The position numbers were made by a program, and so were the translations under genes. Shown piece after piece: positions 5,868-64,000 of a stretch of 64,000 nt of DNA (position 1 is its first letter; each line of letters begins with the position of its first letter). The DNA lies in the IMG/VR virus record IMGVR_UViG_3300043411_000715, positions 1-64,000 of that record; one strand, given 5' to 3'. The DNA comes from a virus. The notes below the pieces were generated by a model. That model searched no databases. It was not told where the DNA came from and saw nothing but the letters and a program-made list of their open reading frames with translations.

Positions 5868-5890
5868 CGCCGATTCCCGCATGGCCCACT
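5868..5890 (+). repeat. Intergenic late-gene repeat, copy 1
   Basis: GC + GATTCCCGCATGGCCCACT in the 42-bp gap before the GNAT gene. The same core occurs at 44501-44521 and, degenerate, at 47390-47410 and near 48671-48680, each time in a gap in front of a late gene. Confidence 0.6.
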
Positions 5891-9288: not shown

Positions 9289-9300
9289 AGGCGCGTGGAC

Positions 9301-24300: not shown

Positions 24301-24306
24301 CACTGA
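9301..24306 (+). CDS. Giant polyvalent protein (lysozyme, ParB-like, Rel/Spo-like, N6-MTase, helicase, zincin, PBECR, LPD38)
   Basis: About 5001 residues in one frame. ATG 9301 was chosen because AAAGG lies 9 nt upstream; GTG 9295 is too close. Order: twin PWEQDW motifs (residues 4-9, 21-26); transglycosylase-like domain about 440-580, likely catalytic Glu449; ddrB-type ParB domain about 690-1050; second ParB-like segment with DGHHQW at 1219; RelA/SpoT-like domain about 1480-1640; low-complexity linker about 1640-1880; N6-adenine methyltransferase with EPGAGIG (about 2072) and NPPF (2137-2140); SNF2/strawberry-notch-type helicase with GSGKT (Lys2768), DEAH (2931) and REGRAVRQ (about 3286-3293); zincin HEAGH (3671-3675); PBECR-like nuclease about 3890-3990; LPD38-like C-terminus from about 4505. 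Such polyvalent proteins are thought to be injected with phage DNA to counter host restriction. Small genes in other frames at 12512, 14265 and 14624 raise the question whether all of it is one chain. Confidence 0.8.
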   Translation: MTNPWEQDWSGAAPQANDKAPWEQDWGKPSDVTKGGVLDTVRDYTLAGLSKAGQGSMQAIAGMADTVSAPVAKTRAMLTGAAALADRWLPGDINPTLQELAQDDAAAAEAKAQQNALNNPLARGTMALRDAARERGQMLQDFDKEFNPELVRQEGEMSKAQGFWENAKAIKDNPLAFYGNLMQSAPAMATGIGMSSGAARAAGALGKVAGMSDEAALALATRSAGAVGTASEAALSGSQAREGIRSNILATPHAQLAENSPRYQELMSQPGMTPALARDTLANEVSTSASLLTSAATALGSTVTNRVFGNLEAQMIAGNKLGAKDALLKMPAKETAEESAQGMGEDYVQHRAMLPADKTNAYDPGGSFVQNAAAGLAMSGPGSVGGYARQQYNASRGLNPDGTKPATPPAAPPADVAMDIRFPDGTVSKDPAGGAFDYARYDQYRTALESGGRADAKNPNSSATGLHQFTEGTWLAMVEKAKPAWAEGLSRDQILAARTDAGKSTEMVRVLDSENSARLRAAGQPVNEHTLYAAHHFGSGRAIDFAKAGDDALMSNILSPSQMRANPYLEGLTKAQAIANWDSRAGGAAPAASPATKPAAESDIASTETDAAAEALQPREAADVDKVSALDKQAQALQSRWNDLNKPEYGPAFDTERADLQSQIAALRGERDQLARDWPKPEYGHPTSFATESGVRLDGRYALVDADALVTSHNSLLNKNGAYPQELQPRERDRAASEAQISGIVNKLDPARLGMSADAATGAPIIGADGVVESGNARTIALMRAYEANGQKAAEYRQFLSDNANQFGLSAEQVGALKNPVLVRVRDTPVDRAEFARQANASTVAAMSPSEQARSDAQRIDNMEDLTPNDDGDFATSRDFIRRFMARLPMTEQAGMVDSSGALSTAGYARVRNAVLAKAYGDSPVLQRLTESMDDNLRNISKALVMAAPEVAKMRSAIDAGARFDVDITPDLMAAVTELSRLKDAGTSVQDAIAQVGMFGEYSTEVRDLLQFLADNIRRPRRIADFVRAYYAALDQAGDPNQGSLLGEKQPPAKGDLMTAARQDAQGELLDGNPATATRSAADAAGDQGRAQAGPEGRVQRPDEARRGHGDQVDGPARSEAAVDKQPSPTGQWRTFPPDMGSLGIPRAEMPQIKGEHRGAFIQFLKGRGIEASEQHEVDAAKLKPTQAEFSMAKVEGFLKKGLGSGRSVLVSSDGYVLDGHHQWMAHAVANQDIPVITLNAPMRELLAVAHEFPSVQRSEGAANDPNASRREAVQDFKAAMADLADIATKWQRAALVPEKDADLMPVLARLFDAAIRIVGTDLKAATRWVKDQLRANPATKKLVNKVEPMSFRKAAEQALEAMSEPPAQGGLFDSPEQASEAVQGDMFGLPEARPYAQLSADEKAAFDRRQGIRASDRGRVSAANYDTARDNYSPPAVESFMPKEALAAADKVIAEHQPEKRNDAAPALSVEDRARAESLLAPVLAKAAEAKAEFDQKVIDIAQRVGALGQQLAPLKGLKRGAEKLVEEKFDVGGMKDLLRSTIVVRSYADAQAVVDAIESEFKLLRAPKNRTGDVPLRAQGEDVAPEDPAKYAGYSDIMVNVVMPNGTIAEIQINTPDMLAAKGAQGHKLYEVLRAEPKGSATFDVVNAASLAFYAEARAAARNSSSVMRDQSAGQNPLAGLSPSQGAFSSSQNRLPSGNSTYDRSMPSPSARSMPKTQPGGNLSGTFMGSSDASIVPGQGAGRSATSAAAQQSQAQNRASRNNSQNDLFGAQDASAEGNRPPGDAGAGAAAVPATGAQRQAGQLREGAGGRAERGNPRRGDAADDGARHAGAARSGAAQAGRGAGSGAHRNRARADGVPVSRDIPAKSGRNYSFSGPDDLSYTGSWAKKAEANVAAVELLRDLIADKRQATPDEQAVLAKFVGWGASELANNLFGDKLNAPAQALREYESASKEMDKLGRGSLSKGGQYRGQYADPGYYQAVGVLRAAGKVAPHEFPPSVTRAQLDAAKPDAGVQRWIALRDRLKVAMTPTEWKEAARTTQYGHYTSKAVVQSMWAAMQRMGFKGGAVLEPGAGIGVFPGLMPADVAANSTYTGIEYDTFTGNVLKQLMPDERIVIDGYQNVALPKDFYDVAIGNPPFASMSVLNDNEYKRNAFKLHDYFFAKTIDRVKPGGLMAFVTSRYTMDKLDDKARAYLAERADLVGAIRMPQTAFKQNAGTEVVTDVLFLRKKVPGEVFEHAQPWAKSTPMQVDGESYPVNEYFHAHPEMVLGTHSSRGSMRAANEYTVLPGEGDIEAAFAKAAATLPADVYRAEIGSAAQAAQVREIDFNPTAKKEGNFYVTDKGVLMQREGGAGLRVEGLKPADEAIVKAYVPLRDAVKQAQYDQLNGGPWEQSLAALQAAYKAFTDKHGPLLQAKAYTVTTTETDPETGEAVKVKDTRYRHPLEALLRSDPDAYLTLALERFNEETGQITTTDALTKRVLEAPVHARVETVHDALLTSLNDLGRVDIAAVAHAVGLSQKDAIEAMGTAIYQDPSAGWQMADEYLSGNVKKKLAEARAAAQSDARYERNVAALEAAQPAPKTPADINVGLGMNWVPAPFYEQFLHDLAGTTVRVNFNTATREWSVEKVDGHKTPAAIADWGTGDRDIADLLVHALKGTPIDISRTEIADGSKKTVKDHAATEAANEKLKALRERFEGWVWENPERSDKLVQLYNDKFNTTVPRRFDGRHLTLPGTTSTVTVFDHVKRGAWRIIQSGNTYLAHAVGSGKTWQMVISAMEQKRLGLIKKPMFVVPNHMLQQFASEWMQLYPAARLMVADEENFHTNNRRRFVSRVALSDLDGVIITQSAFKILDLAPEFKAKIIQEQLDQLEASLHDADPSLKPGQKSRDPTVKQIQAKIEKLETRLQAAMSSEGKDKNVMFDELGVDMLYVDEAHGYRKLDYATSRKVKGLSSDGSAMALDMYAKVRYLAEKNPKRNLVMASGTPITNTIAELYSLQRFMAPEGLEERGLTDFDSWAAQYGREVTALEAGADGKYSPVTRFQRFVNVGDLTMAFRQFADVLTADDLAAILGDKRPKVNTGARQLLLTPKTDGYHEYQKVLAERTEASRKWRPSKDEPNNPDPIIAIIGDGRLAAIDTRFVTPGAGNDPQSKLNQMIDKLVERYKETAVNTYIDKKTGQPEPLKGGTMMVFSDIGFGDGVRLNRGFDTRAWVNKRLAEAGVDMKQVAYMSDYKASADKLKLFRDVNAGKIRILFGTSKNMGTGVNAQQRLTTIFHLDPTWYPADIEQREGRAVRQGNKNPSVDLYAFATKGTYDQNMWQMIARKAAFIDQIMTGDGSINEVEDVDSESNYSVLAAMVADDPRVLELAGQENEVKRLERLYQAHETQRQSFIDRYRQAEWAVQGAEKSLPAAEAAAKKARDLSGDNFTAKVGKATITERAKFGEALIGQLNELSGRVVTEPTPVGEIGGMPLVFHGSKVGSAFSAWIELQAGEPMNLVSNPGESPAGIAMRAQNAVAAVARRPDKLRERIAEQKAVMESIKDRRQAPFPMAQMLTDARAQVQSLKATLAAEGAAQAEPAANVPTMSRGVAEQDGAGVKLADVQAMADRVAAALPKLPGVEVLQSTQDAPPALLAYLEQQGAMDDTEGAFHDGSIYLFAGNLASMERAEHVLATHEAGHAGLAAILGADRARVMQSLLNLNDDLNRRANAVAKRLKVPVTTAVEELLVDVPPADLVKLKGWRRVAHKVQQWLARSGFTALAARMGRWLESRLSDQQKADLLAAELMTAAREHLAGRKPAVRSMAADAQQQSRWLNKQAAQRGYENADAMALADFDGLESLMAQWRGKNPAAAMLARRIVRDGYRTVNDSVIPETPEYDGNLTGDLAQVPAGKTVKAGPIRLPVGVAEGAHRGLGIEHMADNTRRDATRMPKKQTGDLAEDLVRQAVEVLRGVKEVHYDGSKFIFPNPLMKQAVVAVWRGDHYSITTVRPYRNAQNLWGNPEKVGRLTFPTRDAEATSPSIAVAKESSLHPDRFGLEVASERFDFNTDKPKPATQVVVKKKRSIQVPDGAPRLSRAGALPSAAAGQQAQLTPADRAEVLIQKSARTAQPLDAVAQAITRATGVEWAAKKVGSVIAGALNRYTPESVKAGLVSDYGLDPRVRDERVLMQARQQVQLRKAGEMIDSLASLTREESAAAYRWMNETDPDKIIRGMDELPEGSAEKLQEIQRVIDKLSQEAVDLGQLDQRSYERNKFAYLHRSYAKHVLEPKGAKAARARTVAILGNQYKGRGTTETVAMSMVRQTAPEWWDVARKAGKADPNLIGKKLTRYDRLAPSGAGTQTLPGMDGRSDGRVLETVYLPADRAAPKQYAEWRKGATFEVRDVKRGDLTLWRDWTADERQKMGEIDEARFAIAKTLHGMIRDVEVGRFLGWLSRTQAKPTEAQLPAGASIVDASESLLRAFKPGEWVKVPETTIAGTAVKKYGELAGKYVEGPVWNEVRQALHTAQGFGKVYGAILNAWKLSKTALSPTVHMNNIMSNFVMADWHDVTAGHVAKALRIIMGAHDSTSVQGIIGLAGKGMKAAAGMADQDAARELVKRYKDSGAELGSFVVNETMKAQVDPLLAAMEAELRADPNSTAAQVGVMSALQLLRQGEVGAAAKAAAGAQGVRQVIREGGNMIDLYQSEDSVFRLASWLKAKEEGKTDIEAGRIARHSFMDYNINAPWVQAARKTVLPFISYTYRAAPMLADIAMNKPHKILKLMAVAGAIDLLGSLLAGGGADDDKVRKLLPKEKAGGVWGMVPKLIRMPWNDNNGSPVFLDIRRWVPMGDVFDLGQGHAALPIPPSLMPGGPLALAGELIANKSQFTGKPIVLETDTAGQKAGKVADFVYKWAAPNVLGLPGSYATTGVIDAAKGRTDAFGRERSVAQAIASSIGVKAASYPRDILERNIILESKGKQAELERGMRQLARQRSTNAISDAEFERAIGVEQGKLRKLREETQERLEAGRTH
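12512..12670 (+). CDS. 52-aa gene nested in the giant ORF (module seam 1)
   Basis: Read in a different frame from the giant ORF, with AAGGAG 9 nt before the ATG. The product is basic and amphipathic (MAIPQPQPDPQQMQRAIKAV... then KRAVAMAIKSMGLPDPKPQ) and looks like a real small protein. The giant frame here reads as Ala/Gly/Arg/Asp low-complexity sequence, as expected of a shadow frame. It lies exactly between the ddrB-ParB domain and the next ParB-like segment. Function unknown. Confidence 0.55.
   Translation: MAIPQPQPDPQQMQRAIKAVRKLALKVESSARMKRAVAMAIKSMGLPDPKPQ
14265..14489 (-). CDS. 74-aa antisense gene inside the giant ORF
   Basis: On the minus strand, GGAGG then AACCC then ATG gives a near-ideal ribosome site. 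The product is balanced and Trp-rich (MKVPDKFPPGCVFGMD..., FPDGKRFWLDEKAPWEGLKP, FWPADWSRMTEEEF). The sense frame over the same bases is only a Ser/Asn/Pro-rich linker of the giant protein. It looks like a small independent phage gene placed head-on in the seam between the Rel/Spo-like and methyltransferase parts. Function unknown. Confidence 0.55.
   Translation of the reverse strand: MKVPDKFPPGCVFGMDRADGDGIERSYVEFPDGKRFWLDEKAPWEGLKPANGFWPADWSRMTEEEFLAAARASA
14624..14947 (+). CDS. 107-aa gene nested in the giant ORF (module seam 2)
   Basis: Different frame from the giant ORF, with a GGAG ribosome site before ATG 14624. The product is a normal-looking acidic/helical protein (MPVLKETVRRAMQAQAPQLY, then RSGKLASFVKEQADALNAEI). 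From memory, small proteins with a PQLYxxLxxSGxL pattern sit next to strawberry-notch/methyltransferase genes in other phages. The giant frame here is Gly/Ala/Arg-rich low complexity. The gene stops just as recognisable methyltransferase-module sequence resumes. Likely real. How the downstream module gets translated is open. Confidence 0.65.
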   Translation: MPVLKETVRRAMQAQAPQLYRQLERSGKLASFVKEQADALNAEIHDAVMQRMMEPDMQALPDLERPKRAAALDQAHTEIALAQMAFPSAETSPPSPGETTASQAPTT

Positions 24307-25209: not shown

Positions 25210-25289
25210 TCGACATCGGCGAATGGATCGACTGGGCCATCAGCATCTGGCTGCGCTGGATGATGGGTGTGCGGGAGCGGTGGGCATGA
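25206..25289 (+). CDS. 27-aa Trp-rich peptide gene, cassette 2
   Basis: The peptide MIDIGEWIDWAISIWLRWMM plus a short basic tail is bracketed by ATGA-type overlaps with genes on both sides. An analogous 18-aa peptide (MLDFWDWCISTWLAWWCA) stands in the same slot at 58421. The shared pattern is M-hydrophobic-D, W at two spacings, then a W-rich hydrophobic end. It could be a small membrane peptide that tunes the holin; this is inference. Confidence 0.6.
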   Translation: MIDIGEWIDWAISIWLRWMMGVRERWA

Positions 25290-25495
25290 TCGTATTCGGA
25301 GCCATCCAGACCGGCGCTGACGGCAAGCAATACGGCGTACGCTACCTGCTCACGCGCGAGGAGCTGGCCGGGCTGCAGGCGGCCGGCCTGGTGGGCGAGG
25401 TCGAGCAGATCGACGGCATGCAAGCCGTGGCCGATGGCATCGTGGCGATGTACGAGCGCGAGGCGGTGCTGGCCTGCGGCGGGAGCGTGCAATGA
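25286..25495 (+). CDS. Conserved 69-aa lysis-cassette protein
   Basis: Homologous along its length to 58474-58692 and to the partial gene at 2-88. Shared features are YGVRYLLT / YAVRYLLT, a repeated GLQ-A-GL-G segment, a D-A--V--YEREA motif and the C-terminal CGGS. It overlaps both neighbours. Function unknown; conserved order implies a role tied to the cassette. Confidence 0.65.
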   Translation: MIVFGAIQTGADGKQYGVRYLLTREELAGLQAAGLVGEVEQIDGMQAVADGIVAMYEREAVLACGGSVQ

Positions 25496-25782
25496 GCGCA
25501 TGGAGCGTGACCGACGATGCCGCGATGCTGGATTACGGCACGGTGCCGGTGCGTGCACTGGCCCAGCGCCTGCGCCGCTCGATTGGCAAGGTGTACGACC
25601 GTGCGCGGACGCTTGGGCTGACGCGCAAATACCGTGGCGGAGAGCCATATGGAGGCACCATGAAGCCGAAGAAAACGCATGTGCGCTATCGCAGCGCGAT
25701 CACTGGGCGCTGGGTGACCGAGGCCTACGCCAAGGCGCATCCCGCGACGACCGTGCGCCACATTATCAAGGGGGGCGTGTGA
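25492..25782 (+). CDS. HTH-like protein fused to small basic module
   Basis: 96 residues. The N-terminal about 55 residues (VPVRALAQRLRRSIGKVYDRARTLGL) look like the HTH-type protein found in this slot in the other two cassettes. The C-terminal 40 residues (RYRSAITGRWVTEAYAKAHP) match a small phage protein that is usually free-standing. An internal ATG at 25661 with GGAGG upstream would yield that 40-aa protein alone, so two products are possible. Confidence 0.6.
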   Translation: MSAWSVTDDAAMLDYGTVPVRALAQRLRRSIGKVYDRARTLGLTRKYRGGEPYGGTMKPKKTHVRYRSAITGRWVTEAYAKAHPATTVRHIIKGGV

Positions 25783-26351
25783 CCCTCAACTTGCTCCCTT
25801 GGTGGGCTTTTGCCGCCGCCGGCGCCGTGGCCGGTGCTCTGCTGGCCGGTGGCGTGCAGCAAACGCGCGTCAGCAATGCCAAGGCGGAACTGGCGCAGGT
25901 ACGCGAGCAGCACGCCAAGGCCGTTGCCGACGCCGCGCTGGCCAAGGCTGCAGCCCACGCCCGCGCCCTCGAAATCGAGCGCGAGCTGACCGCGCGCGAG
26001 CAGGCCCTGCAAGCCACGATTGACAAGCAAGATCAGGATGCCCGACATGCTCAAGCCCAACACGCTGCTGACCGCGCTGCTGCCGCTGCTGCTGCTGACC
26101 GCCTGCGCGAGCAACTCGCCACTATCACCCGTGCCGCAAGTGCCGGTGCTCGTGTCCAAGCAGATTCAAATTCCAGAGCTGCCCGAGAGCGCGAAGCAGC
26201 CGACGCCACCACCCGAATGCTTGCCGAGCTGCTCGCAAGCGCTAGCGACCGAGCGGGAACGCTGGCTGTCTTTGCTGACGCCGCCCACGCCGCCGGCACA
26301 AGCTGCGAGCGCGCCTACACCAGTGCCCGCGAGGCCGTGACCGTACGCTGA
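25779..26351 (+). CDS. Rz: i-spanin (Rz-like), cassette 2
   Basis: 190 residues from a GTG that overlaps the previous stop (GTGA). The N-terminal membrane segment LPWWAFAAAGAVAGALLAGG is almost the same as in the cassette 3 i-spanin (LPWWAYAAAGAVAGALLAGG). The coiled-coil remainder is different, so the gene looks recombinant. It hosts the nested o-spanin. Confidence 0.85.
   Translation: MTLNLLPWWAFAAAGAVAGALLAGGVQQTRVSNAKAELAQVREQHAKAVADAALAKAAAHARALEIERELTAREQALQATIDKQDQDARHAQAQHAADRAAAAAAADRLREQLATITRAASAGARVQADSNSRAAREREAADATTRMLAELLASASDRAGTLAVFADAAHAAGTSCERAYTSAREAVTVR
26038..26340 (+). CDS. Rz1: o-spanin lipoprotein (Rz1-like), nested, cassette 2
   Basis: 100 residues in another frame inside the i-spanin gene. 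The signal peptide (LLTALLPLLLLTAC) has lipobox LTAC, followed by a Pro-rich region and CLPSCSQ, which echoes CQPSCSQ of the cassette 1 o-spanin. ATG 26038 was preferred to a TTG at 26020. Confidence 0.85.
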   Translation: MPDMLKPNTLLTALLPLLLLTACASNSPLSPVPQVPVLVSKQIQIPELPESAKQPTPPPECLPSCSQALATERERWLSLLTPPTPPAQAASAPTPVPARP

Positions 26352-26728: not shown

Positions 26729-27136
26729 TCAGGGGAAGTACAGCTTTGGTTCGCCCTCGATGACCACGACGACGTAGAAGTCGTCCGGGTCGCTCGTGGC
26801 GGCGCCGCTGTTGTGCTCGCTGGCCAGATGTTGCTGGGCGGCACGAGCGGCTTCGGCGGGTGAGTCGGCCTCGCCCTCCCAGAAGTAGTGCTCATGGCCG
26901 TAGTTGTTGGCGATGTGGTCGGGGTAAAGCAGGACGACGGTGTAGGTGTTCATGGTGTTGTGTAGCCTTAACTGAAATCGCTGTTCCCCCTGTGCTGCTG
27001 GGGCTGCGCCAGCAAGGGCAGCGCGCCCTTGGACTACCGTGTTGTGTCTCTCGCCAAAGTGCAATGCGTTGTGCTCTACGCATATCCACAGCGCCTCGCG
27101 CAGGGCATCCGCCCCAATGGGAGTTGTGTTAGGCAT
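26729..27136 (-). CDS. Two-module early protein (fusion)
   Basis: 135 residues with GGAGG upstream. The N-terminal module (LREALWICVEHNALHFGERH, NTVVQGRAALAGAA) recurs nearly unchanged at 61226-61501, joined there to a different C-terminal part. After the linker PAAQGE comes a module starting at an internal Met (MNTYTVVLLYPDHIANNYGH) that could be a separate 74-aa protein. Function unknown; evidence of module swapping. Confidence 0.6.
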   Translation of the reverse strand: MPNTTPIGADALREALWICVEHNALHFGERHNTVVQGRAALAGAAPAAQGEQRFQLRLHNTMNTYTVVLLYPDHIANNYGHEHYFWEGEADSPAEAARAAQQHLASEHNSGAATSDPDDFYVVVVIEGEPKLYFP

Positions 27137-27269
27137 TCGAGCCTCCGTGTATATAGGTTTTGCGCAGTGCGCTATGGGGTGGCTGATTTGGCGGCGCGGA
27201 TGGTTGCGCTGCTCGGTCAGTCGATGCGTTTCGATGATGACGCGGGCGGGAGCGGCTGGAGGTGGTCAT
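27129..27269 (-). CDS. 46-aa basic small protein
   Basis: A short Arg/Pro/His-rich frame (MTTSSRSRPRHHRNAS...) whose ATG overlaps the upstream stop (ATGA at 27266-27269). Its stop overlaps the start of the next gene by a few bases. Composition is low-complexity, so it may serve mainly as a translational link. Confidence 0.35.
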   Translation of the reverse strand: MTTSSRSRPRHHRNASTDRAAQPSAPPNQPPHSALRKTYIHGGSNA

Positions 27270-27715
27270 GATTCATCCCTTTTGCCGGCCCACCAGTCCG
27301 CGCCTGGCGGGTGGTCGGCTTCGTATCCGGCTTCGATTGCGGCCTCGATGCCTTTGCGCAGCGCGTTTTTGCCTCCCAAGGCATTGCGCAGCGTTTTGAA
27401 CGCCGCCTGCACCTTGTCGTTGTCGCGCTCCGTCATCCACAGCAGCCCGAGGGCCAGCAGAGCGGCGGATTCAATGTGCTGCAGGCGATGCAGGTCGATC
27501 TCCGCCTCTTGAACGCAGTCGTCGTCTCCACGAGATGCAGCGAAGCCGCGCAATACAGCCAGCTCGCGCTTCAACGGGCCGGGATGCAGGTCGAGCGCGA
27601 TCTCATCGATGCGCGATCTGTCGCCCTTGGCATAGGCCAGCGCCAGCGGATAGTGACCAACGACGGTTCGTGAGCCGTCGGGATGCATCACGCGCCAGAC
27701 CGTGCTTTCAGCCAT
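27266..27715 (-). CDS. Hypothetical early protein
   Basis: 149 residues, mostly helical. A 'W-V-HPDG-R' start is followed by two long helices and the C-terminal GADWWAGKRDES. No known family recognised. It overlaps the Lar-like gene by 8 nt. Confidence 0.6.
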   Translation of the reverse strand: MAESTVWRVMHPDGSRTVVGHYPLALAYAKGDRSRIDEIALDLHPGPLKRELAVLRGFAASRGDDDCVQEAEIDLHRLQHIESAALLALGLLWMTERDNDKVQAAFKTLRNALGGKNALRKGIEAAIEAGYEADHPPGADWWAGKRDES

Positions 27716-28106
27716 GCTTGGCTCCTTCCTTGGCTACGCGGGCGCGCAGGTATTTGACGGCCGCGTTATGGGCGTCCGCCACGTACTCCGCATTAGGCAT
27801 CCTCACGATTTCTGTCAGGGCGGCGATGTGCTTTGCGTCACAAGCATCCCCCTGTGCTGCTGGGGCGGGCGCTGCCTGGGTGGTGGGCGCGCGGCGGTTC
27901 CAGGCGGCGATTGCGCTTGCGCGGTCCTTGCCAACTCGCTCGATGGCGCGGCTTGGTTGGCCGGGTGTCGCCTCGCAATGGTGAAGCACGGAAACGCTTG
28001 AGGGCTCCCCGTACTTCATGCCCTGCCAAATGAGGCCATTCTCTCGAATGACTGTAGTGCCCGCTCCGCAAAACGGGCACGGCGCCAGGGTGTTGGTGTC
28101 AGTCAT
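27708..28106 (-). CDS. Lar-like restriction-alleviation domain plus variable module
   Basis: 132 residues from ATG 28106. The N-terminal about 75 residues have the Lar family pattern: PCPFCG, a later H-C, and IAAWNRR. Lar proteins of lambdoid phages modulate type I restriction. After the linker QAAPAPAAQGD the C-terminal module (CDAKHIAALTEIVRMPNAEY, VADAHNAAVKYLRAR) is also found at the end of the protein at 61226-61501. Hence a Lar-like head on a mobile tail module. Confidence 0.65.
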   Translation of the reverse strand: MTDTNTLAPCPFCGAGTTVIRENGLIWQGMKYGEPSSVSVLHHCEATPGQPSRAIERVGKDRASAIAAWNRRAPTTQAAPAPAAQGDACDAKHIAALTEIVRMPNAEYVADAHNAAVKYLRARVAKEGAKHG

Positions 28107-28722
28107 TTGAGTCTTTCTGCGCATTGGTGCGGGAGGCGTCGATCTGTGAGTCGGTGAGAGGCATTCGCTCAGGCTGCGCGGGTTCTTCTTTGGGGGCGGC
28201 TGCGAGGGTAGATTGGATCGCCATCCAGGCGTCCAGTCCTTCGTTTGAGATTTGTTCGCACGCCTCAAGCATCATTTGCTCGTCGCCTTGAGCAGCCGTC
28301 TCTGCTTCAACCTTCATGCTGTTGATTGCTCTCTGAGCGCCGATTAACGCTTGAACCAGCGCCAGAGCACTCGATTCCAGATACACCGGCACATCTCCGT
28401 CGAGCGCGCTCGGCCCGAACTTTGCACTTCGGAGTTGCGCGCCGTGCCCAGAGTGCAATCGACTAAGCTCATAAGCCGGCAGGTAGCCGACTGGCCTGTC
28501 ATAGATGCGGTCGCTGTCGTCTCGTGGCTCTGCCGGGTCTCCGGTCAATGCTGGCGGCTGTGCTGCGGTGGAGAGTGCCGCACGGCGAAGCTCTGCGCGC
28601 CACCAGTATTTGCCCGCGCCTTCCGGCGTTTCGCCGAATTGAAACCCGTTGAGAGGGCCGTCGCCCATCAGGAAATTGATGACGGTCTTGAGGTCAGGGG
28701 CGGCATTGGTGTTGGTGGTCAT
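28099..28722 (-). CDS. Hypothetical early protein with linker module
   Basis: 207 residues from ATG 28722. The N-terminal part has GPLNGFQFGETPEGAGKYWW, then ALSTAAQPPA, a linker that also occurs at both protein and DNA level in 62077-62460. A helical middle and a Pro-rich C-terminus follow. No function known. It overlaps neighbours on both sides. Confidence 0.6.
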   Translation of the reverse strand: MTTNTNAAPDLKTVINFLMGDGPLNGFQFGETPEGAGKYWWRAELRRAALSTAAQPPALTGDPAEPRDDSDRIYDRPVGYLPAYELSRLHSGHGAQLRSAKFGPSALDGDVPVYLESSALALVQALIGAQRAINSMKVEAETAAQGDEQMMLEACEQISNEGLDAWMAIQSTLAAAPKEEPAQPERMPLTDSQIDASRTNAQKDSND

Positions 28723-28970
28723 TCGTCGTTCTCCCAATAGCTCATGTCTTCATCTGCGACATCGTCAGGAGACTCCCAGTTATCGATATCAATGCCATTG
28801 GATTTGGCCTGTTTATCCGCGCACGCGGCAGCAAAGTACGCAGCTATCTCTTGATCTAGTTCCCACGCGGTCATGTACCTTTTGGCGCATGCTTCGACCC
28901 ACTGATCGCGCGTGAGAGCCGTGATGCTGGCTTCGGTCATTCCTCGCCCCCATTGTGGGTGTGGTGTCAT
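28719..28970 (-). CDS. Small acidic early protein
   Basis: 83 residues from ATG 28970, which overlaps the stop of the YqaJ gene; Met at 28940 is an alternative. Helical start, strongly acidic end (DNWESPDDVADEDMSYWEND). Function unknown; coupled to the recombination genes. Confidence 0.55.
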   Translation of the reverse strand: MTPHPQWGRGMTEASITALTRDQWVEACAKRYMTAWELDQEIAAYFAAACADKQAKSNGIDIDNWESPDDVADEDMSYWENDE

Positions 28971-30811
28971 GCTGCCTCCAGCTCGCCGCGCATGGCGTCG
29001 GTAGCGCACCGGACAATGGCCTGGCAAAGCTGCTCGAACTGAGACTGGCTGTACAACTTTGCGGCCTTCTTCGTCGCCAGCGGCTCGATGCCGAATTCGG
29101 CCAGGCCGGCTGCGCTGATGCTGATCGGGTGCAGGCGCTCGTTGATGGCGCCGAGGGTAAGGGTAGGAGCTTCATCGGCCGCATCGCCAGTTGCCGCAGC
29201 GTTAGCAATGCCAGCGGCCACAGGCGCGGCAGCGGTCGGTGCAGGTGCAATGGGCTTTCCCGGCGTGGCCTCTTTTTCTCGTTCGATCGCTTCCAGTGCT
29301 CGCGTTACGGCTGGTTTGGCGGCTTCGGCCAGGATTCGCTCGCGCCGAGCCGCTGCTTCGCGCTCGGCCGCTTCCGCTTGAGCCTTCTGTTGCTCCTCGG
29401 CCCGAATGCGCGCCCGCTCGGCTTCGGCCTTGGCCTCGGCGGCGGCATGGGCCTTGCGTTCTTCCTCCTGGCGGATGCGCTCGCGTTCGGCCTCGATGCG
29501 AGCCGCCTCGGCATCCACCCGCTTTTGCATCAGCAGCTCCAGCGTCTCGGCGTCCTTGTAGGCCAGCTCCTGCCGATCGGCAAAAAGGTGGGCGTACTGC
29601 GGCACGCTGTCCAGCGTTTTCAGGTTGTTGATGATCCGGATGGCGATGGTGTTGGCCTCGGCCCTGCCGGCGATCAGCGCGGCGGTCAGCTTGTCGTCGA
29701 TGCTGGACAGGCTGCTCAGGCCCTTGATGGCCGCGCCGAAATCCGGCATGGGCACATTCAGGAGAACGCCCTTGATGTCCAGCTGGCAGGCGGCGACATG
29801 CTTGTCAAACGCCTGGCGCGCCGCCACGACTTTCTCGGTGCGGCGCGCGTCCTTCTCGGCCTTGACCAGCTTCTCGGTGGCCAGCCGGGTGGATCGTGCC
29901 AGCTCTTTCAGGTCGGCCACGGTGCGGCGCATTACTTCCACGTCGCTGATCTGCGCCAGTGCGCCGTCCTCGGCCTGGGCGAGCGCGTCCTCGGCTTTGC
30001 GCAGCGCCTTGCACGCGGCCTCAGCATCTGCGAACTGCTGATCGGTGGCGGGCCTGGCCGGGATGCGCTCGATGAATGCGCGCAGGGCCTGCCCGAAGGC
30101 GGGCAGGTTGCCGGCGACCGTGAGGGCGCCTTGCACCTGCACCACCACGGCGGGCAGGCTTTCCATGGGCGCGGCCACGGCCTGGGCGGGGCGCTCGGCT
30201 GCTGGGTTGTAGGCGGCTACGTCCTGCTCAAACTGCGCCCAGCCAGTAACCAGGCGCTGGCGCATATCGGGGTCTGGCGTGTACCAGCAGTGGCGCCCTT
30301 CGCTGATTTCGTCGCCGTCCAAACTTGCCGCCGTGAACAGGATGCGCTCGCAGCCCGAAACCATGGCCTGCTGCTCAAGCTGCGCACGATAGTGCTCGGG
30401 CAACTGGTGGCCGCTTTCCGGGATGCCGTCAAGTCGATTCGGGATGGCGTCGCGCAGCGCGGCGTTGAGTGTTTTGCACTCCCATGCTGTGTCGCCCTCG
30501 AATGTCAGGCCGTCGAAGCTGGCGCTGTACTTGCCATCGGCCAGCACCAGCGGGGCCAGTTCTTCACCGATGATCTGCTCGGCCAACGGGCGGGCAAGTG
30601 CCTCGATGCGGTGGCCATCGGCAAAGCGGCGCGCGGTGGCCGCGTCAATCTCGGCGTCAACGATGCCGGTGGCCACTTCGTGCAGCAGCGCTTGGCGGGT
30701 TTTGTAGGGGCTGCAGCCCAGCATGGCGGGGGCGTCGCTGGCGTTGAAGTGCTCGCGCCGGTGCTGGTGCCAGGCGGCACTGCCTTGTTCGTGGTTGATG
30801 ACTTGTCGCAT
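28967..30811 (-). CDS. YqaJ-type phage exonuclease with long coiled-coil tail
   Basis: 614 residues. The N-terminal about 200 residues are a YqaJ/lambda-exo-type PD-(D/E)XK nuclease: SAAWHQHRREHFNASDAPAM, then YSASFDG and WECKTL, which carry the expected metal-binding D, E and K. The remainder is a long Ala/Glu/Arg coiled coil (about 330-540), unusual for this family. With RecT next to it, this would resect dsDNA ends for single-strand annealing. A second copy of the tail half lies at 62696-64000. Confidence 0.85.
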   Translation of the reverse strand: MRQVINHEQGSAAWHQHRREHFNASDAPAMLGCSPYKTRQALLHEVATGIVDAEIDAATARRFADGHRIEALARPLAEQIIGEELAPLVLADGKYSASFDGLTFEGDTAWECKTLNAALRDAIPNRLDGIPESGHQLPEHYRAQLEQQAMVSGCERILFTAASLDGDEISEGRHCWYTPDPDMRQRLVTGWAQFEQDVAAYNPAAERPAQAVAAPMESLPAVVVQVQGALTVAGNLPAFGQALRAFIERIPARPATDQQFADAEAACKALRKAEDALAQAEDGALAQISDVEVMRRTVADLKELARSTRLATEKLVKAEKDARRTEKVVAARQAFDKHVAACQLDIKGVLLNVPMPDFGAAIKGLSSLSSIDDKLTAALIAGRAEANTIAIRIINNLKTLDSVPQYAHLFADRQELAYKDAETLELLMQKRVDAEAARIEAERERIRQEEERKAHAAAEAKAEAERARIRAEEQQKAQAEAAEREAAARRERILAEAAKPAVTRALEAIEREKEATPGKPIAPAPTAAAPVAAGIANAAATGDAADEAPTLTLGAINERLHPISISAAGLAEFGIEPLATKKAAKLYSQSQFEQLCQAIVRCATDAMRGELEAA

Positions 30812-30822
30812 GGTGGTTCCTT

Positions 30823-31815
30823 TCAGGCGAAGCTGGCTTGGGTGTCTTCGTAGATTGCGGTGAGTTCCTGCCGATGCTGCGGGTTCTCGACCGCGCCGAT
30901 CAGGGTGGCGATCTCGTCCAGCTCATCCAAGTTGGCGGCGTTTTGCAGGCGCCCGGCCAGGCCGGCATAGGTGACGGTGGGCGCGGCCTCGGTCTTTGGC
31001 TGCACGTCCTGGACTTCATCGGCGGGCGGCACGGCCTTGACGGACAGCAGCCGGGCTTTCTGCTCTTCAGTGAAGGGCTCGCCTCGGGTGGCGGCGAAGT
31101 CGATGTAGTCCTTGGCGCTCTTGCGGCCCTGCTGGATGGTTTCAGCCCACTTTGGCAGGTTGTGGTCGAACTTGGCGGGGTCGTAGAACTTGACCGGTGC
31201 GGGTGCTGGCTGCACCACGTCAGCCGGCCCCATGTGCTTCTCGGTCGCATCAACGATGCGCTCGGCCTCGTCCTGGTCGTAGATGCCGCCATAGCCGAAG
31301 GCCAGGCGAGCGCACTGGATCATGGACTTGTGACGCAGGAAACGCTTGGTGTGCGTCTGCCAGGGGCCGGTCACCTCGCCGTACTTGCCCTTGAAGGGCG
31401 CGCGGTACACCTCGTCCAGGTATTCGCGCACCACAATGGGCCGGCTGCGGTCCTTGCGGTAGATGTGGCACTCGATCCACTCGGGCGCTGGCTTGCCACC
31501 GGGCATCGTCACAAGTTTGTCGGCGTGGTGAAACTCGATGCCGTCGAACTGAGGATGCGAGTTGATGATGCGGCTCCAGCCGTCCACCCCGACCACGGGC
31601 ACGATGCCGTTGTTCTTGTCGGGGAAGGCATAGATTTCCTTCGTCCAGGGGTTGAGGCCGTACTGATTGGCCACCACCAGCAGCGCGGTCATTTGCGCGT
31701 CGGTCACTTCGCCCTTGAAGGCGGTGGCCTTTAGGGTTTCAATCAGACCTTCGCCGTCGCCCATGTCGAGTTTGGTGGCGAGGGTTTGGGTGAGGGTGGT
31801 GAGGGCGTTGGTCAT
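30823..31815 (-). CDS. recT: RecT/Bet single-strand annealing protein
   Basis: 330 residues from ATG 31815 (AAGGAA upstream). Bet/RecT family signatures are visible: MTALLVVANQYGLNPWTKEIYAFP, VVGVDGWSRIINSHPQFDG and the RFLRHKSMIQCARLAFGYGG region. It binds ssDNA and anneals complementary strands, working with the YqaJ nuclease 12 bp downstream. The C-terminus is variable. Confidence 0.92.
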   Translation of the reverse strand: MTNALTTLTQTLATKLDMGDGEGLIETLKATAFKGEVTDAQMTALLVVANQYGLNPWTKEIYAFPDKNNGIVPVVGVDGWSRIINSHPQFDGIEFHHADKLVTMPGGKPAPEWIECHIYRKDRSRPIVVREYLDEVYRAPFKGKYGEVTGPWQTHTKRFLRHKSMIQCARLAFGYGGIYDQDEAERIVDATEKHMGPADVVQPAPAPVKFYDPAKFDHNLPKWAETIQQGRKSAKDYIDFAATRGEPFTEEQKARLLSVKAVPPADEVQDVQPKTEAAPTVTYAGLAGRLQNAANLDELDEIATLIGAVENPQHRQELTAIYEDTQASFA

Positions 31816-31828
31816 GATGTTTCCTTGG

Positions 31829-32041
31829 TCATTTGTGCCCACTGGCCGCCAGCAGCGCCAGCGCCTGGGCTTGGTGGATTTTGGCCCGAGCCTGTTGCTG
31901 GGCGTCGCGCAGGTCGGCGGCGGTGTCCTGCAGCGCCTCGGTGTCGCTGGGGCCGGGCATCAGCCACATCCCCAGCACAAACGCCAGCACGCACAGAATC
32001 AGGGTGAGCCAGACGGCCCAGTGGTCGGCGCGCTCGGTCAT
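31829..32041 (-). CDS. Small single-pass membrane protein
   Basis: 70 residues. One strong transmembrane helix (WLTLILCVLAFVLGMWLM) is followed by an Ala/Gln-rich helix. The start overlaps the ASCH-type gene stop (ATGA). An early membrane protein upstream of recT; function unknown. Confidence 0.6.
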   Translation of the reverse strand: MTERADHWAVWLTLILCVLAFVLGMWLMPGPSDTEALQDTAADLRDAQQQARAKIHQAQALALLAASGHK

Positions 32042-36257: not shown

Positions 36258-36488
36258 ATGAGCACCGAACCAAAAACATTGTCACCGGCCGATCAGGAGC
36301 GCGAGCTGCGCATCCAGGCCGAGGGCTTGCTGATGCAAGCCGAGATGCTGGCCTGGGAGCGCACGGGATACCTTGGCGCGCGTGCTGGGGCGGACTATCA
36401 CCGCATGCGCATGGAGCAGCTGATTGCCGAGCGATCGCCGGAGGCGGTGGCGCGGATGGAAGACGCGAGGGGGCTGCCTCATGCGTGA
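36258..36488 (+). CDS. Hypothetical early protein
   Basis: 76 residues, helical and acidic/basic mixed (LSPADQERELRIQAEGLLMQ). No family recognised. Overlaps the initiator gene by 8 nt. Confidence 0.5.
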   Translation: MSTEPKTLSPADQERELRIQAEGLLMQAEMLAWERTGYLGARAGADYHRMRMEQLIAERSPEAVARMEDARGLPHA

Positions 36489-44500: not shown

Positions 44501-44521
44501 GCGATTCCCGCATGGCCCACT
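44501..44521 (+). repeat. Intergenic late-gene repeat, copy 2
   Basis: GCGATTCCCGCATGGCCCAC in the gap after terL, 25 bp before the next ATG. Matches copy 1 at 5868-5890 over at least 20 bp. A short inverted repeat (GGTCAACTTCCGGGCC) follows. Confidence 0.6.
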
Positions 44522-58420: not shown

Positions 58421-58477
58421 ATGCTTGACTTTTGGGACTGGTGCATCAGCACCTGGCTGGCGTGGTGGTGCGCATGA
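58421..58477 (+). CDS. 18-aa Trp-rich peptide gene, cassette 3
   Basis: MLDFWDWCISTWLAWWCA, five Trp in 18 residues. The stop overlaps the next ATG. Same slot and pattern as the 27-aa peptide at 25206. No clear SD of its own; it is likely translated by coupling. Too short for usual gene finders. Confidence 0.55.
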   Translation: MLDFWDWCISTWLAWWCA

Positions 58478-58692
58478 GCGAGTTCAAGGTTTGGAGCGCA
58501 CCCATCACCGGGCGCGATGGACACACCTACGCGGTGCGCTACCTGCTGACCGACGCGGAGCTGACTGGACTGCAATCGGCCGGCCTGATCGGCGATGCCG
58601 ACGAGGTTGTCGGCCTGCAGCACGCGGCCGATTGTGTGGTGGCGCAGTACGAGCGCGAGGCCATGCTGGTCTGCGGTGGGAGCATGCAATGA
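58474..58692 (+). CDS. Conserved 72-aa lysis-cassette protein
   Basis: Full-length version of the partial gene at 2-88 (identical over the shared 28 codons) and homologue of 25286-25495. Contains YAVRYLLTDAELTGLQSAGL and ends CGGSMQ. Function unknown; overlaps both neighbours. Confidence 0.65.
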   Translation: MSEFKVWSAPITGRDGHTYAVRYLLTDAELTGLQSAGLIGDADEVVGLQHAADCVVAQYEREAMLVCGGSMQ

Positions 58693-58720
58693 AGCCAGAG
58701 CGACGTGGTGGACGACGCAA
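58605..58720 (+). repeat. 116-bp exact repeat of window bases 1-116
   Basis: Identical base for base to 1-116. The first mismatch is T58721 versus C117, then nine further matches, then clear divergence. The repeat may extend left of the window start. See findings. Confidence 0.9.
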
Positions 58721-58910
58721 TTTCTGGACGGCCATCGACGACCAAATCCTGCGCGACGGCTTTGACACCATGACGCTGGCCGAGCTGTGCCGCAAGCTGG
58801 GCCGTAAACCCAGCGCCGTGGCGGCGCGCGCCGGCGTGTTGGGGCTTGAGCCGCATGGCGAGTGCGGCGTGCAGGCGCTGCAGCGGGCGTGGTTCGGGGC
58901 GGCGCAATGA
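58689..58910 (+). CDS. Small HTH-like protein, cassette 3
   Basis: 73 residues, divergent allele of 85-303. Same first 14 residues (MKPERRGGRRNFWT), then LAELCRKLGRKPSAVAARAG as the helix-turn-helix-like part. Overlaps both neighbours (ATGA). Confidence 0.6.
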   Translation: MKPERRGGRRNFWTAIDDQILRDGFDTMTLAELCRKLGRKPSAVAARAGVLGLEPHGECGVQALQRAWFGAAQ

Positions 58911-60803: not shown

Positions 60804-61229
60804 TCATGATTGCGGCTCCCAGGACCACCTATCCGGGTCGATTTGTGGCGGCTCCCACCCCTCGATCAGCCCATCGGCGCCGATCTTCATGATGATGTAG
60901 TCGCCGTAGGCGGGCTCGCTGACGCCCAGCAGGTCAGGCACGTAGCCCGACATCTCGGCTACAACCCTTTTGCCATCGAGTAGCTCGTATTCGCCGGCGT
61001 CGCACACCTTGTAGTAAATGTCCGCCGTCGTCCCTTCGGGCCAGTCGCGCACGCGGCCGGTATCCAGCTCGATGATCGGCATCCAGCAGTCACCGAAGCG
61101 CAGCGGGATCAGCGCGCCGTCCGTGTCTTCAACACCGTTTACCGTGGCATCTTCCCAATGGCGGACTTCCGCCGTGATGCCGATGGCGGTGACCTCGATT
61201 TCCTTAGTGATTTGTGCTGTGATTTTCAT
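60804..61229 (-). CDS. Hypothetical early protein
   Basis: 141 residues, beta-rich (MKITAQITKEIEVTAIGITA, EVRHWEDATVNG). No family recognised. Last gene of the second leftward operon; start overlaps the preceding stop. Confidence 0.55.
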   Translation of the reverse strand: MKITAQITKEIEVTAIGITAEVRHWEDATVNGVEDTDGALIPLRFGDCWMPIIELDTGRVRDWPEGTTADIYYKVCDAGEYELLDGKRVVAEMSGYVPDLLGVSEPAYGDYIIMKIGADGLIEGWEPPQIDPDRWSWEPQS

Positions 61230-61501
61230 GCTTCGCCTCCTTCCTTGGCTGCGCGGGCGCGCAGGTATTTGACGGCCGCGTTATGGGCGTCCGCCACGTA
61301 CTCCGCATTGGGCATCCTCACGATTTCTGTCAGGGCGGCGATGTGCTTTGCGTCACAAGCATCCCCCCGTGCTGCTTGGGCTGCGCCAGCAAGGGCAGCG
61401 CGCCCTTGGACTACCGTGTTGTGGGTCTCGCCGAAGTGCAATGCGTTGTGCTCTACGCATATCCACAGCGCCTCGCGCAAGGCACCTCGAAAATCAGCCA
61501 T
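61226..61501 (-). CDS. Two-module early protein (shuffled)
   Basis: 91 residues from ATG 61501. The N-terminal module (LREALWICVEHNALHFGETH, NTVVQGRAALAGAA) equals the head of the protein at 26729-27136. The C-terminal module (CDAKHIAALTEIVRMPNAEY, VADAHNAAVKYLRAR) equals the tail of the Lar-like protein at 27708-28106. The joint is at AQAARGD. Function unknown. Confidence 0.6.
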   Translation of the reverse strand: MADFRGALREALWICVEHNALHFGETHNTVVQGRAALAGAAQAARGDACDAKHIAALTEIVRMPNAEYVADAHNAAVKYLRARAAKEGGEA

Positions 61502-61829
61502 TGCTCTCTCCTTGTGCGCTGCGGGCGGCGTCGATGATCGAATCGACCTCATCGGCTGGCGCGCAGCGCAACCAATAAAATACGTCTGTGCTATCCCAGG
61601 TCTTGTATTTCTTGAGATACCGATACCGCGCGGCATCCTCCGCATCCTGAGATGCTGGCGCAGCAGGTTGGGTCGGGCTTTCGGCTTTCCTCTGGATGTA
61701 GGCTTGCAGCCACGCGTCCACGTAGGCGCGCATCTGGTCGGCGGTGTAGAGATAAACCTCGTCGAGGAAAGACTCTTGAACCAACATGAAATGTGCCGGC
61801 AGCTCGGGGTATTGTTTGTTGTCGGTCAT
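61494..61829 (-). CDS. Hypothetical early protein with Ala/Pro linker
   Basis: 111 residues. The N-terminal part (ADQMRAYVDAWLQAYIQRKA) and C-terminal part (DAEDAARYRYLKKYKTWDST) are joined by PTQPAAPASQ. The AARYRYLK segment is common in phage early proteins. Function unknown. Confidence 0.55.
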   Translation of the reverse strand: MTDNKQYPELPAHFMLVQESFLDEVYLYTADQMRAYVDAWLQAYIQRKAESPTQPAAPASQDAEDAARYRYLKKYKTWDSTDVFYWLRCAPADEVDSIIDAARSAQGESNG

Positions 61830-62080
61830 CCTGATTTCGTCCTTGGTTGAATCTCCGTCGCCTGCCAGATCGGCTGCTGGATGCGCTCAAAAGTGATGAC
61901 GCGCTTCATGCCCAATTTCGCCAGCGTGGCGTCACTCGGGGATGATTTTTCGCCGGTGGATAGTCGGAACAGGTAGCTCGATTCGATGCCGATTGCTTTT
62001 GCGGCGGCGCGCACAGAGCCGTGGGTGTTGATCAGTTCGCCGACGCGTGTACGTATGGGGTCGCTGCTGCCCTCGGTCAC
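61826..62080 (-). CDS. HTH protein of second early operon
   Basis: 84 residues. ELINTHGSVRAAAKAIGIES, SYLFRLSTGEKSSPSDATLA has the order of a small XRE/Cro-type HTH. A DNA-binding regulator placed inside the leftward operon. Overlaps both neighbours by 4 nt. Confidence 0.65.
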   Translation of the reverse strand: MTEGSSDPIRTRVGELINTHGSVRAAAKAIGIESSYLFRLSTGEKSSPSDATLAKLGMKRVITFERIQQPIWQATEIQPRTKSG

Positions 62081-62460
62081 GCCTGCTCCTTTGCTGGCTC
62101 CATTTCGTCCCCGATGATTCCCTCAAAAGCATCAAGTGCGTCATTCCAGACCGACATATCGACCATCATTGCCAGTCCATCAGGGCCTTCAATTTCCTCT
62201 CCGCTGTGGAACATGGCGGCGATGGTGTTCAGGGCGCCGTCTGCTGGCGGCTGTGCTGCGGTGGAGAGGGCAGCGAGGATCGCGTCGGCCAATTCAGGGG
62301 GCGTGTCGGACTCGCCCACGTCATCAAAGTCGTCCTGACTCATCGTGCCGAAGTTCCACGCTTCCCAGACGCGCAAGCAGCGGTAGGTGCCGCTCAGATG
62401 TTCAGCAATCATGTCGATCAGCTTTTCGCGCAGGGCGGCGTTGGGGTGGGGTGTGGTCAT
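62077..62460 (-). CDS. Hypothetical early protein with linker module
   Basis: 127 residues. The N-terminal module (ALREKLIDMIAEHLSGTYRC) is followed by ALSTAAQPPA, the same linker as in 28099-28722 at DNA level, then an acidic C-terminal part (SVWNDALDAFEGIIGDEMEP). Function unknown. Confidence 0.55.
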   Translation of the reverse strand: MTTPHPNAALREKLIDMIAEHLSGTYRCLRVWEAWNFGTMSQDDFDDVGESDTPPELADAILAALSTAAQPPADGALNTIAAMFHSGEEIEGPDGLAMMVDMSVWNDALDAFEGIIGDEMEPAKEQA

Positions 62461-62699
62461 TTGATCAGCTCCGTGCGTTCAAAAAAATTGCAGCCGTCCC
62501 AGTCGGGTGGCGGCTCTGCTGGGCGCAGCAGGCCGTGAGCAAGAGCAATGTCTTGCAACTCACCGCCATCAATGCCGCCTTCGGGCCAGGCCTGCATCAC
62601 CTCTTTTGTAAATGCGAGCAGTTGGTCGCGCTGCGCCGTGACGCATTGCTTGCAGTCGCATGCCGGGTCGTGACCATGAATGCCGGCGTCAGCGGTCAT
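62457..62699 (-). CDS. Small Cys/His-containing early protein
   Basis: 80 residues with HGHDPACDCKQC at the N-terminus (possible zinc site) and a C-terminal part with PPPDWDGCNFFERTELIK. Overlaps the YqaJ-type gene by 4 nt. Function unknown. Confidence 0.55.
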   Translation of the reverse strand: MTADAGIHGHDPACDCKQCVTAQRDQLLAFTKEVMQAWPEGGIDGGELQDIALAHGLLRPAEPPPDWDGCNFFERTELIK

Positions 62700-64000
62700 G
62701 CTGCCTCCTCTTGGCGCGCTTCATTGGCCAAGCAGGCGACCTGCTCCAAATGACCCGTCAGTTTTTGTAGCAACTCGTGGAATTGCGCGGACGAATACAG
62801 TTTGGCCTTCTTCGTCGCCAGCGGCTCGATACCGAATTCGGCCAGGCCAGCCGCGCTCACGCTGATCGGGTGCAGGCGCTCGTTGATGGCGCCGAGGGTC
62901 AGGGTGGGCGCGTCATCGGCTGCACTTCCAACTGCCGCAACGGGAGCAATGCCAGCGGCCACAGGCGCGGCAGCAATCGGGGCAGGTGCAAGGGGCTTTC
63001 CCGGCGTGGCCTCTTTTTCTCGTTCGATCGCTTCCAGTGCTCGCGTTACGGCTGGTTTGGCGGCTTCGGCCAGGGTTCGCTCGCGCTGAGCCGCTGCTTC
63101 GCGCTCGGCCGCTTCCGCTTGGGCCTTCTGTTGCTCCTCGGCCCGAATGCGCGCCCGCTCGGCTTCGGCCTTGGCCTCGGCTGCGGCCTGGGCTTTTCGT
63201 TCTTCCTCTTGTCGGATGCGCTCACGCTCGGCCTCGATCCGCGCCGCTTCCGCATCCACCCGCTTTTGCATCAGCAGCCCCAGCGTCTCGCCGTCCTTGT
63301 AGGCCAGCTCCTGCCGGTCGGCAAACAGGTGGGCGTAGGCGGGCACGCTGTCGAGCGTTTGCAGGTTGTTGATGATCCTGGACGCCAAAGTGTTGACCTC
63401 TGCTTGGCTCGAAATCAGCGCGTCAGTCAGCTTGTCGTCGATGCTGGCCAGGCTGCTAAGGCCCTTGATGGCCGCGCCAAAGTCAGGCATAGGCACATTC
63501 AAGCGCACGCCTTTGATGTCCAATTGGCAGGCCGCAACATGCTTGTCAAACGCCCGGCGCGCCGCCATGACTTTCTCGGTGCGGCGCGCGTCTTTCTCTG
63601 CTTTGACCAGCTTCTCGGTCGCAAGTCGGGTTGACCGCGCCAGATCCTTGAGGTCGGCAACGGTGCGGCGCATCAGTTCGACGTCGCTTATCTGCGCGAG
63701 GGCTCCATCTTCGGCCTGGGCCAGCGCGTCCTCGGCTCGCTTGAGGGCCTTGCACGCAGCCTCGGCATCCGCGAACTGCTGATCGGTGGCGGGCCTGGCC
63801 GGGATGCGGGCAATGAAGTCACGCAGGGCCAAACCAAAGGCGTCGAGGTTGCCGCCCACGGTCAGGGCACCTTGCACCTGCACCACCACGGCGGGCAGGC
63901 TTTCCATGGGCGCGGGCGTGACCGGGGCCGGGCGGTCTTCGGGGACGTAGGCGGCGAGGTCGGAGGCGAATTGATCCCAGCCCGCAATCAGGCGCGACAC
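62696..64000 (-). CDS. Second YqaJ-type exonuclease gene (partial, coiled-coil half)
   Basis: Runs off the window, so only the C-terminal about 434 residues are seen. They match the tail of the nuclease at 28967-30811 closely through the coiled coil (LQTLDSVPAYAHLFADRQEL; ARIEAERERIRQEEERKAQA). They diverge after KLYS at the extreme C-terminus. The nuclease core should lie beyond 64000. Confidence 0.8.
   Translation of the reverse strand: MSRLIAGWDQFASDLAAYVPEDRPAPVTPAPMESLPAVVVQVQGALTVGGNLDAFGLALRDFIARIPARPATDQQFADAEAACKALKRAEDALAQAEDGALAQISDVELMRRTVADLKDLARSTRLATEKLVKAEKDARRTEKVMAARRAFDKHVAACQLDIKGVRLNVPMPDFGAAIKGLSSLASIDDKLTDALISSQAEVNTLASRIINNLQTLDSVPAYAHLFADRQELAYKDGETLGLLMQKRVDAEAARIEAERERIRQEEERKAQAAAEAKAEAERARIRAEEQQKAQAEAAEREAAAQRERTLAEAAKPAVTRALEAIEREKEATPGKPLAPAPIAAAPVAAGIAPVAAVGSAADDAPTLTLGAINERLHPISVSAAGLAEFGIEPLATKKAKLYSSAQFHELLQKLTGHLEQVACLANEARQEEAA

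Follow-up and report, generated by a model that had tools for sequence, protein, structure and literature searches.

Shared linker DNA between modules of small early phage proteins as a candidate seam for in-frame exchange

Background

Domain mosaicism of phage proteins, where otherwise unrelated proteins carry a common fragment after a recent, high-identity exchange (Smug et al. 2023, PMC10684548), is already known, as are conserved boundary sequences, short stretches of shared DNA that border exchanged modules and are usable by general or phage recombinases (a model cited in PMC3029335). A large hidden mosaic reservoir is expected in accessory proteins of unknown function (PMC10684548). Most phage mosaic joints have no shared sequence (PMC3029335), and it is therefore an old question whether they arise through short shared homology or through random illegitimate events. 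Rad52-like phage recombinases, including RecT of Rac, recombine short and diverged sequences well (De Paepe et al. 2014, PMC3945230); lambda Red requires about 30 bp, and blocks of only a few bp can contain the joints (PMC2327257). The present analysis concerns the first 64,000 nucleotides (the window) of the IMG/VR virus record IMGVR_UViG_3300043411_000715, which has 69,491 bases in full, and specifically three small early proteins (A, B and C) whose head and tail modules are combined differently across a short common linker.

In contrast to the described mosaicism, the fragments are 40-53 aa long, the proteins are tiny and early, and the seam is recognizable as shared DNA; linkers are not discussed in that study. 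More specifically, A and C have only the head in common and B and C only the tail, the rest being dissimilar, with fragments of 41 aa (A/C) and 53 aa (B/C) against published cut-offs of at least 50 aa and a coverage of at most 50% (PMC10684548); the tail covers more than 50% of the 91-aa protein C. In difference from the boundary-sequence model, the seams are intragenic, encode the linker between modules and keep the frame by construction. RecE and RecT genes stand beside the modular genes, as in the Rad52-like and Red systems for which short homologies suffice, whereas the recombinase activity and linker use of this RecET pair are putative. No description of intragenic linker DNA as a shared seam of small early proteins was found in the full-text literature, a scope that leaves out most subscription journals. 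Since the shared sequence is visible here, lies inside genes and encodes the linker, it predicts splice sites of new phage proteins and offers a rare direct view of the old question.

Heads, tails and linkers in the early proteins

An earlier note on this DNA had described one head on two proteins with different tails, one tail behind two heads (one of them Lar-like), and joints that all fall in a linker coded by similar DNA. A sequence search found every quoted peptide and the DNA motif, and these observations are confirmed. The head is common to A and C (99 of 103 bases identical; peptide LREALWICVEHNALHF at 27056-27103 and 61433-61480, both on the minus strand), and the tail stands behind the Lar-like head of B and the different head of C (129 of 134 bases; peptide CDAKHIAALTEIVRMPNAEY at 27783-27842 and 61298-61357, also on the minus strand). 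All three joints (APAAQGE, APAAQGD and AQAARGD) lie in linker 1. In pairwise BLAST comparisons, A and C are alike only over head and linker, B and C only over linker and tail, and A and B only over the linker; homology with C passes through the linker in A, begins at the linker in B and, for the B/C tail, stops at the start codon of the next gene. Exact copies of the motif CCCCCTGTGCTGCTGGGG lie at 26986-27003 and 27848-27865, and a copy that has 2 mismatches lies at 61363-61380; allowing up to 3 mismatches, 0.22 chance matches are expected, and none of 100 shuffles reaches three. Within this record, two heads and two tails are seen in three of their four possible combinations.

A second linker, overlooked in the earlier reading, joins different heads and tails in two further proteins of 212 and 127 aa. 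Once tandem repeats and long homologies are removed from the 69.5-kb record, no other same-strand exact match is as long as this 27-bp linker 2, and the 20-bp linker 1 ties for second place with an intergenic 20-mer (5871/44502); the longest exact matches in 10 shuffled records are 16-19 bp. GCA, which makes up only 9% of the Ala codons here, appears two or three times in each linker, and the two linkers share the core GCAGCACAG; of the five copies of this 9-mer in the record, four lie in the linkers. Linker identity thus probably goes back to common descent, codon preference alone being an unlikely reason. The shared linker DNA is thus exact and in frame between otherwise unrelated open reading frames (ORFs), at the joints and in excess over chance, and the same is seen in a second phage group (see below). 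A further candidate seam, ATGGCTGA at gene starts, was dropped (8 occurrences in the record against 2.6 expected, mostly intragenic).

Layout of the record

Comparison of the full record with itself identifies two blocks of lysis and early genes that match in order and orientation, at about 25.3-34.3 kb and 58.5-68.8 kb. The longest exact repeat is a copy of the first 116 bases at 58605-58720, which probably marks a join between two genomes, alpha (1-58604) and beta (58605-69491). From this repeat and the gene order, the simplest reading is that alpha is one closed, apparently complete genome of about 58.6 kb, to which the last 10.9 kb, probably a related phage's lysis and early region, became attached at the 116-bp node, either naturally or through the assembler. 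The gene order matches that of Lessievirus-type podoviruses such as BcepIL02 (terminase, portal, head, tail fibre, internal virion protein, giant DarB-like protein, lysis).

On the same simplest reading, A and B are alpha proteins, C is a beta protein encoded at the equivalent position after RecE, and the comparison is therefore mainly one between two related phages, most likely not one among three proteins of a single phage, as had been assumed. The interval first proposed for the shuffled proteins (26729-28106) accordingly holds for A and B, while C lies 33 kb away, probably in another phage's early region. Alpha and beta are 86.8% identical in RecE DNA, 87.2% in RecT and 71-86% in the other backbone, whereas the head and tail modules are 96.1% and 96.3% identical, and so the modules moved between lineages after the alpha/beta split. 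Coordinates are collected in Table 1.

Table 1. Positions, in the window, of the early proteins, their modules and linkers, and of associated features
Feature	Positions	Strand	Basis or remarks
Protein A, 135 aa	26729..27136	-	Open frame; head, linker 1, leader-like stretch QRFQLRLHNT, MNTYTVVLLYP... domain
Head module in A	27005..27107	-	99/103 bases identical to 61382-61484 in C
Linker 1 in A, GCCCCAGCAGCACAGGGGGA (APAAQG-E)	26985..27004	-	20/20 identical to B, 18/20 to C
MNTYTVVLLYP... domain of A (tail X)	26729..26953	-	Own ATG at 26953, AAGG 12 nt upstream
Protein B, 132 aa	27708..28106	-	PF14354; Lar-like zinc-ribbon head, linker 1, tail; start codon and the upstream gene's stop overlap in ATGA
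Linker 1 in B (APAAQGD)	27847..27866	-	Exact copy of the linker in A
Tail module in B	27713..27846	-	129/134 identical to 61227-61361 in C
Protein C, 91 aa (beta)	61226..61501	-	Head, linker 1, tail; AAGGAG before ATG 61501
Linker 1 in C, GCCCAAGCAGCACGGGGGGA (AQAARGD)	61362..61381	-	2 differences from A and B
212-aa early protein with linker 2 (alpha)	28099..28737	-	Sequence comparison
Linker 2 in alpha, CTCTCCACCGCAGCACAGCCGCCAGCA (LSTAAQPPA)	28549..28575	-	27/27 exact against 62242-62268; flanks unrelated on both sides
127-aa protein, linker 2 between different head and tail (beta)	62077..62460	-	Sequence comparison
Linker 2 in beta	62242..62268	-	27/27 exact, in frame
149-aa protein between B and A	27266..27715	-	82% aa / 85% DNA identity to EBPR siphovirus 1 gp5, residues 71-149 only
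111-aa protein beside C	61494..61829	-	Sequence; similar Ala/Pro/Gln linker (PTQPAAPASQDAEDA) before AARYRYLK...IDAAR tail
RecE-like exonuclease upstream of cluster (alpha)	28967..30811	-	phrog_7655 E 4.5e-160, PF09588
RecT/Bet-like annealing protein (alpha)	30823..31842	-	PF03837 4.4e-29, phrog_252
RecE-like gene upstream of C (beta)	62696..64000	-	phrog_7655; 86.8% DNA identity to alpha RecE; continues past the window
116-bp copy of record positions 1-116	58605..58720	+	Longest exact repeat in the record

Shared linkers in other phages

RecE-adjacent early regions of other phages were compared together with the record itself (150 dereplicated sequences). Eight syntenic early ORFs (L116, L117, L119, L140, L144, L148, L162 and L164) consist of modules in a chain, spaced by four to five shared linkers (LAATGKQQVGEVQGD, LAARQPG, PAQGIDL and PQPAELAEQQ, plus the common C-end QRDAAPGV), whose DNA is 17-54 bp long and mostly 84-100% identical. 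All 39 exact matches of at least 17 bp between these ORFs are in the same frame, and 20 codon-shuffled controls give none. The modules between the linkers are 72-90% identical in some ORF pairs and unrelated in others: a head (H1) is common to L144, L148 and L162 with differing middles, a middle (M1) to L117 and L162 with differing heads, and a late module (N1) to L162 and L164. Such recurrence of the same modules with different partners therefore indicates exchange and not mere divergence. QPGDRLWVRE and RDYFAAKA were not counted as linkers, being conserved motifs of truly homologous, diverged proteins, and, among the outside loci, inter-ORF islands of 18-19 bp were left unused, since in-frame chance matches are common at that length.

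The linkers differ from one phage group to the next, and the idea of one universal crossover linker did not survive: linker 1 was not found in related proteins elsewhere, linker 2 is missing from 399 Burkholderiales genomes at up to 1 mismatch (0/399), and other phages use other linkers. Degenerate linker-1 DNA has 16 matches in viral_contigs, none with these heads or tails and mostly in one unrelated prophage family, and blastn of both linkers against phages returned matches at chance level only. The modules were also searched separately, as the earlier note had proposed, and the combinations came from within the record only. For protein C, the search of viral_contigs, genome_contigs, phages, plasmids and 714 whole genomes returned only weak matches at E 0.001-0.01, which were treated as noise; protein A, and likewise the head and tail alignments, found no related module in viral_contigs, and protein B found no related module, its search returning one distant Lar and one chance antisense match. 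For tail X and the tail of the 111-aa protein, no relative was seen in phages or plasmids (tail X in phages by tblastn).

Proposed mechanism and rival explanations

The preferred reading, to which a probability of about 0.62 is given, is that modules of about 30-50 aa in early proteins are exchanged between related phages by recombination inside the short linkers between them. Because the linker DNA itself is shared (20 and 27 bp here, 17-54 bp in other phages), it could serve as a homology patch for annealing, and we infer that it is the pairing site and not merely carried along. A crossover within it would keep the frame automatically and place the joint in a flexible Ala/Pro/Gln/Gly stretch, so that most recombinant products would be tolerated. 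The agent of the in-frame exchange would probably be the phage's own RecE and RecT, encoded just upstream, and selection would act through variation of host-facing proteins, presumably favouring new combinations at the host interface. The alpha order Lar-linker-tail ... head-linker-X may then reflect a former tandem copy of a C-like gene, or a repeat unit inserted into a Lar-linker-X gene, in either case via the linkers. A broader proposal is doubtful: that phage early regions encode a class of chain proteins whose inter-module linkers are kept at the DNA level as recombination seams, each phage group having a few that would be selected both as flexible peptide and as homology patch, with RecE/RecT recombining modules in frame and so generating new host-facing proteins combinatorially.

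Several points weigh against the preferred reading: (i) none of the collections named above yielded a relative of the shared head or the shared tail module, and their combinations can therefore be counted only inside this record; (ii) at 20 and 27 bp, linkers 1 and 2 are below the 30 bp quoted for efficient Red/RecA recombination; (iii) mosaic breakpoints in 64 families from related loci are only mildly enriched in Pro/Gln and not in Ala (A+P+Q 0.25 against 0.217 expected), so that the rule of joints in linkers is a tendency and not a law; (iv) illegitimate module swaps also leave shared linker DNA if the linker stays attached to one module; and (v) the exchange is read from sequences, no recombination event having been observed. 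The in-frame exchange suggested by the earlier note is supported by the three proteins, by linker 2 and by the eight outside ORFs, but the tail of A resembles a read-through into a separate gene's leader (AAGG...ATG at 26953), not a swapped tail module. Tail X may originally have been such a separate gene, a fused neighbour with its own start. The start of A at 27136 is supported by a strong GGAGG site 5 nt before the ATG, whereas a codon-model gene caller picks the internal ATG at 26953 over it.

The fourth point leads to the most serious rival, in which linkers travel with modules after illegitimate events: breaks would fall anywhere, only in-frame survivors between modules would be selected, and the shared linker would be the end of a carried module. 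Illegitimate recombination is the standard model for phage mosaic joints, boundary homology usually not being found (PMC3029335), and it suits both the continuation of A's tail into an apparent leader and gp13 of EBPR podovirus 1, which joins a Lar head to an apparent integrase fragment without such a linker. This account expects each linker to be tied to one neighbour, however, and several linkers are common to the eight outside ORFs while both neighbouring modules differ; linker 2, moreover, is an exact 27-bp island in DNA that is unrelated on both flanks. As a full explanation it is thus considered rather unlikely. Somewhat less credit is given to duplication and decay, under which an alpha ancestor carried tandem C-like genes; in one of them a Lar gene replaced the head, in the other a deletion into the next gene removed the tail, and no combinatorial exchange took place. 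The identity of the A and B linkers, both 2/20 off C, and the equal A/C and B/C divergences (about 4%) look as if both derive from one C-like alpha gene, and the order of tail, 149-aa protein and head between the linkers fits a former tandem unit; yet a transfer between alpha and beta is still demanded by modules that are 96% identical in a backbone of 71-87%, and linker 2 and the outside ORFs are left unexplained.

That the joints in A, B or C are chimeras of the metagenome assembler is very improbable, even though the record itself is probably composite (positions 1-116 recur at 58605 and lead into another lysis and early block): these genes do not include the suspected join at 58605-58720, private substitutions number 4 in the head module and 5 in the tail module, 20 bp is short for an assembler branch point, and the same architecture is seen in independent records. 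Even less probable, indeed scarcely credible, is a dedicated site-specific system, shufflon-like or recombinase-driven, that acts on the linkers. Its appeal lies in a short sequence repeated between variable modules and in the CCCC...GGGG arms of linker 1, but the copies are direct and in different genes, their sequence differs between linker types, and linker 2 has no arms. The 69.5-kb record (its beta part incomplete) has no Phage_integrase (PF00589) or Resolvase (PF00239) match, and this absence of tyrosine and serine recombinase families also speaks against such a system.

Function and annotation

Among the three proteins, only B carries a recognizable domain. Its head scores 45.2 bits against the Lar profile PF14354 (cut-off 28.6; phrog_599 E 1e-9) and has the CPFC knuckle; it differs from that family in the added linker and orphan tail and in the second site, which reads LHHCE (HHC) with no clear CxxC, and it is Lar-like by sequence alone. 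Protein A has no Pfam or PADLOC match and only a weak PHROG match (E 0.086), and PADLOC defence models find no family among seven cluster proteins. A putative anti-restriction or host-takeover role, of the kind first suggested for these proteins, would be a fair guess, given their position and the Lar head.

The cluster has further joints. The Lar head of B is 67% identical to that of EBPR podovirus 1 gp13 (L021 3995-4414), whose second part is an apparent C-terminal integrase fragment and which is annotated as 'integrase', a warning that naming such proteins after a single piece misleads. The 149-aa protein is itself a fusion, since its C-terminal half is a complete stand-alone gene (gp5) in EBPR siphovirus 1. 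Similarly, the module AINSMK...ISNEGL of the 212-aa protein recurs in otherwise different Comamonas prophage proteins. The orphan look of many small early proteins may partly reflect new combinations of pieces.

Additional observations

The alpha RecE-like protein is itself mosaic: its best overall identity with L022 is 48-55%, whereas the Glu/Ala-rich coil close to the C-terminus is nearly identical. Simple-repeat-coded linkers may be another class of seam: a 267-aa protein (36481-37281, plus strand) has the linker NQEQEQEQEQE, whose simple-repeat coding DNA recurs between different flanks in several other phages, and TGTGTG, DTDTDT or REEKSREEKK repeats occur in similar early proteins of other phages. 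A possible third linker system is NQPVQAKAL in Herminiimonas prophage proteins, which is repeated within one protein (L098 14927-15865) and shared with a different head (L081 13518-14537).

Elsewhere in the record, a lysis-type cassette (X, Y, Rz-like) is present in three copies (1-760, 25286-26349 and 58441-59434), the third being a hybrid whose first part is nearest to the copy at 1-306 and whose Rz part is nearest to that at 25780. A single ORF of 5003 aa (9295-24306, plus strand) occupies the position of the giant DarB-like protein of Lessievirus. The intergenic 20-bp exact repeat mentioned above, CGATTCCCGCATGGCCCACT (5871-5890 and 44502-44521, plus strand), lies in two gaps of the late region and is possibly a shared regulatory element. 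Finally, the beta early block encodes a protein of about 250 aa with a 15-bp-period repeat in the style of pentapeptide repeats (L198, 66413-67165 of the full record, minus strand).
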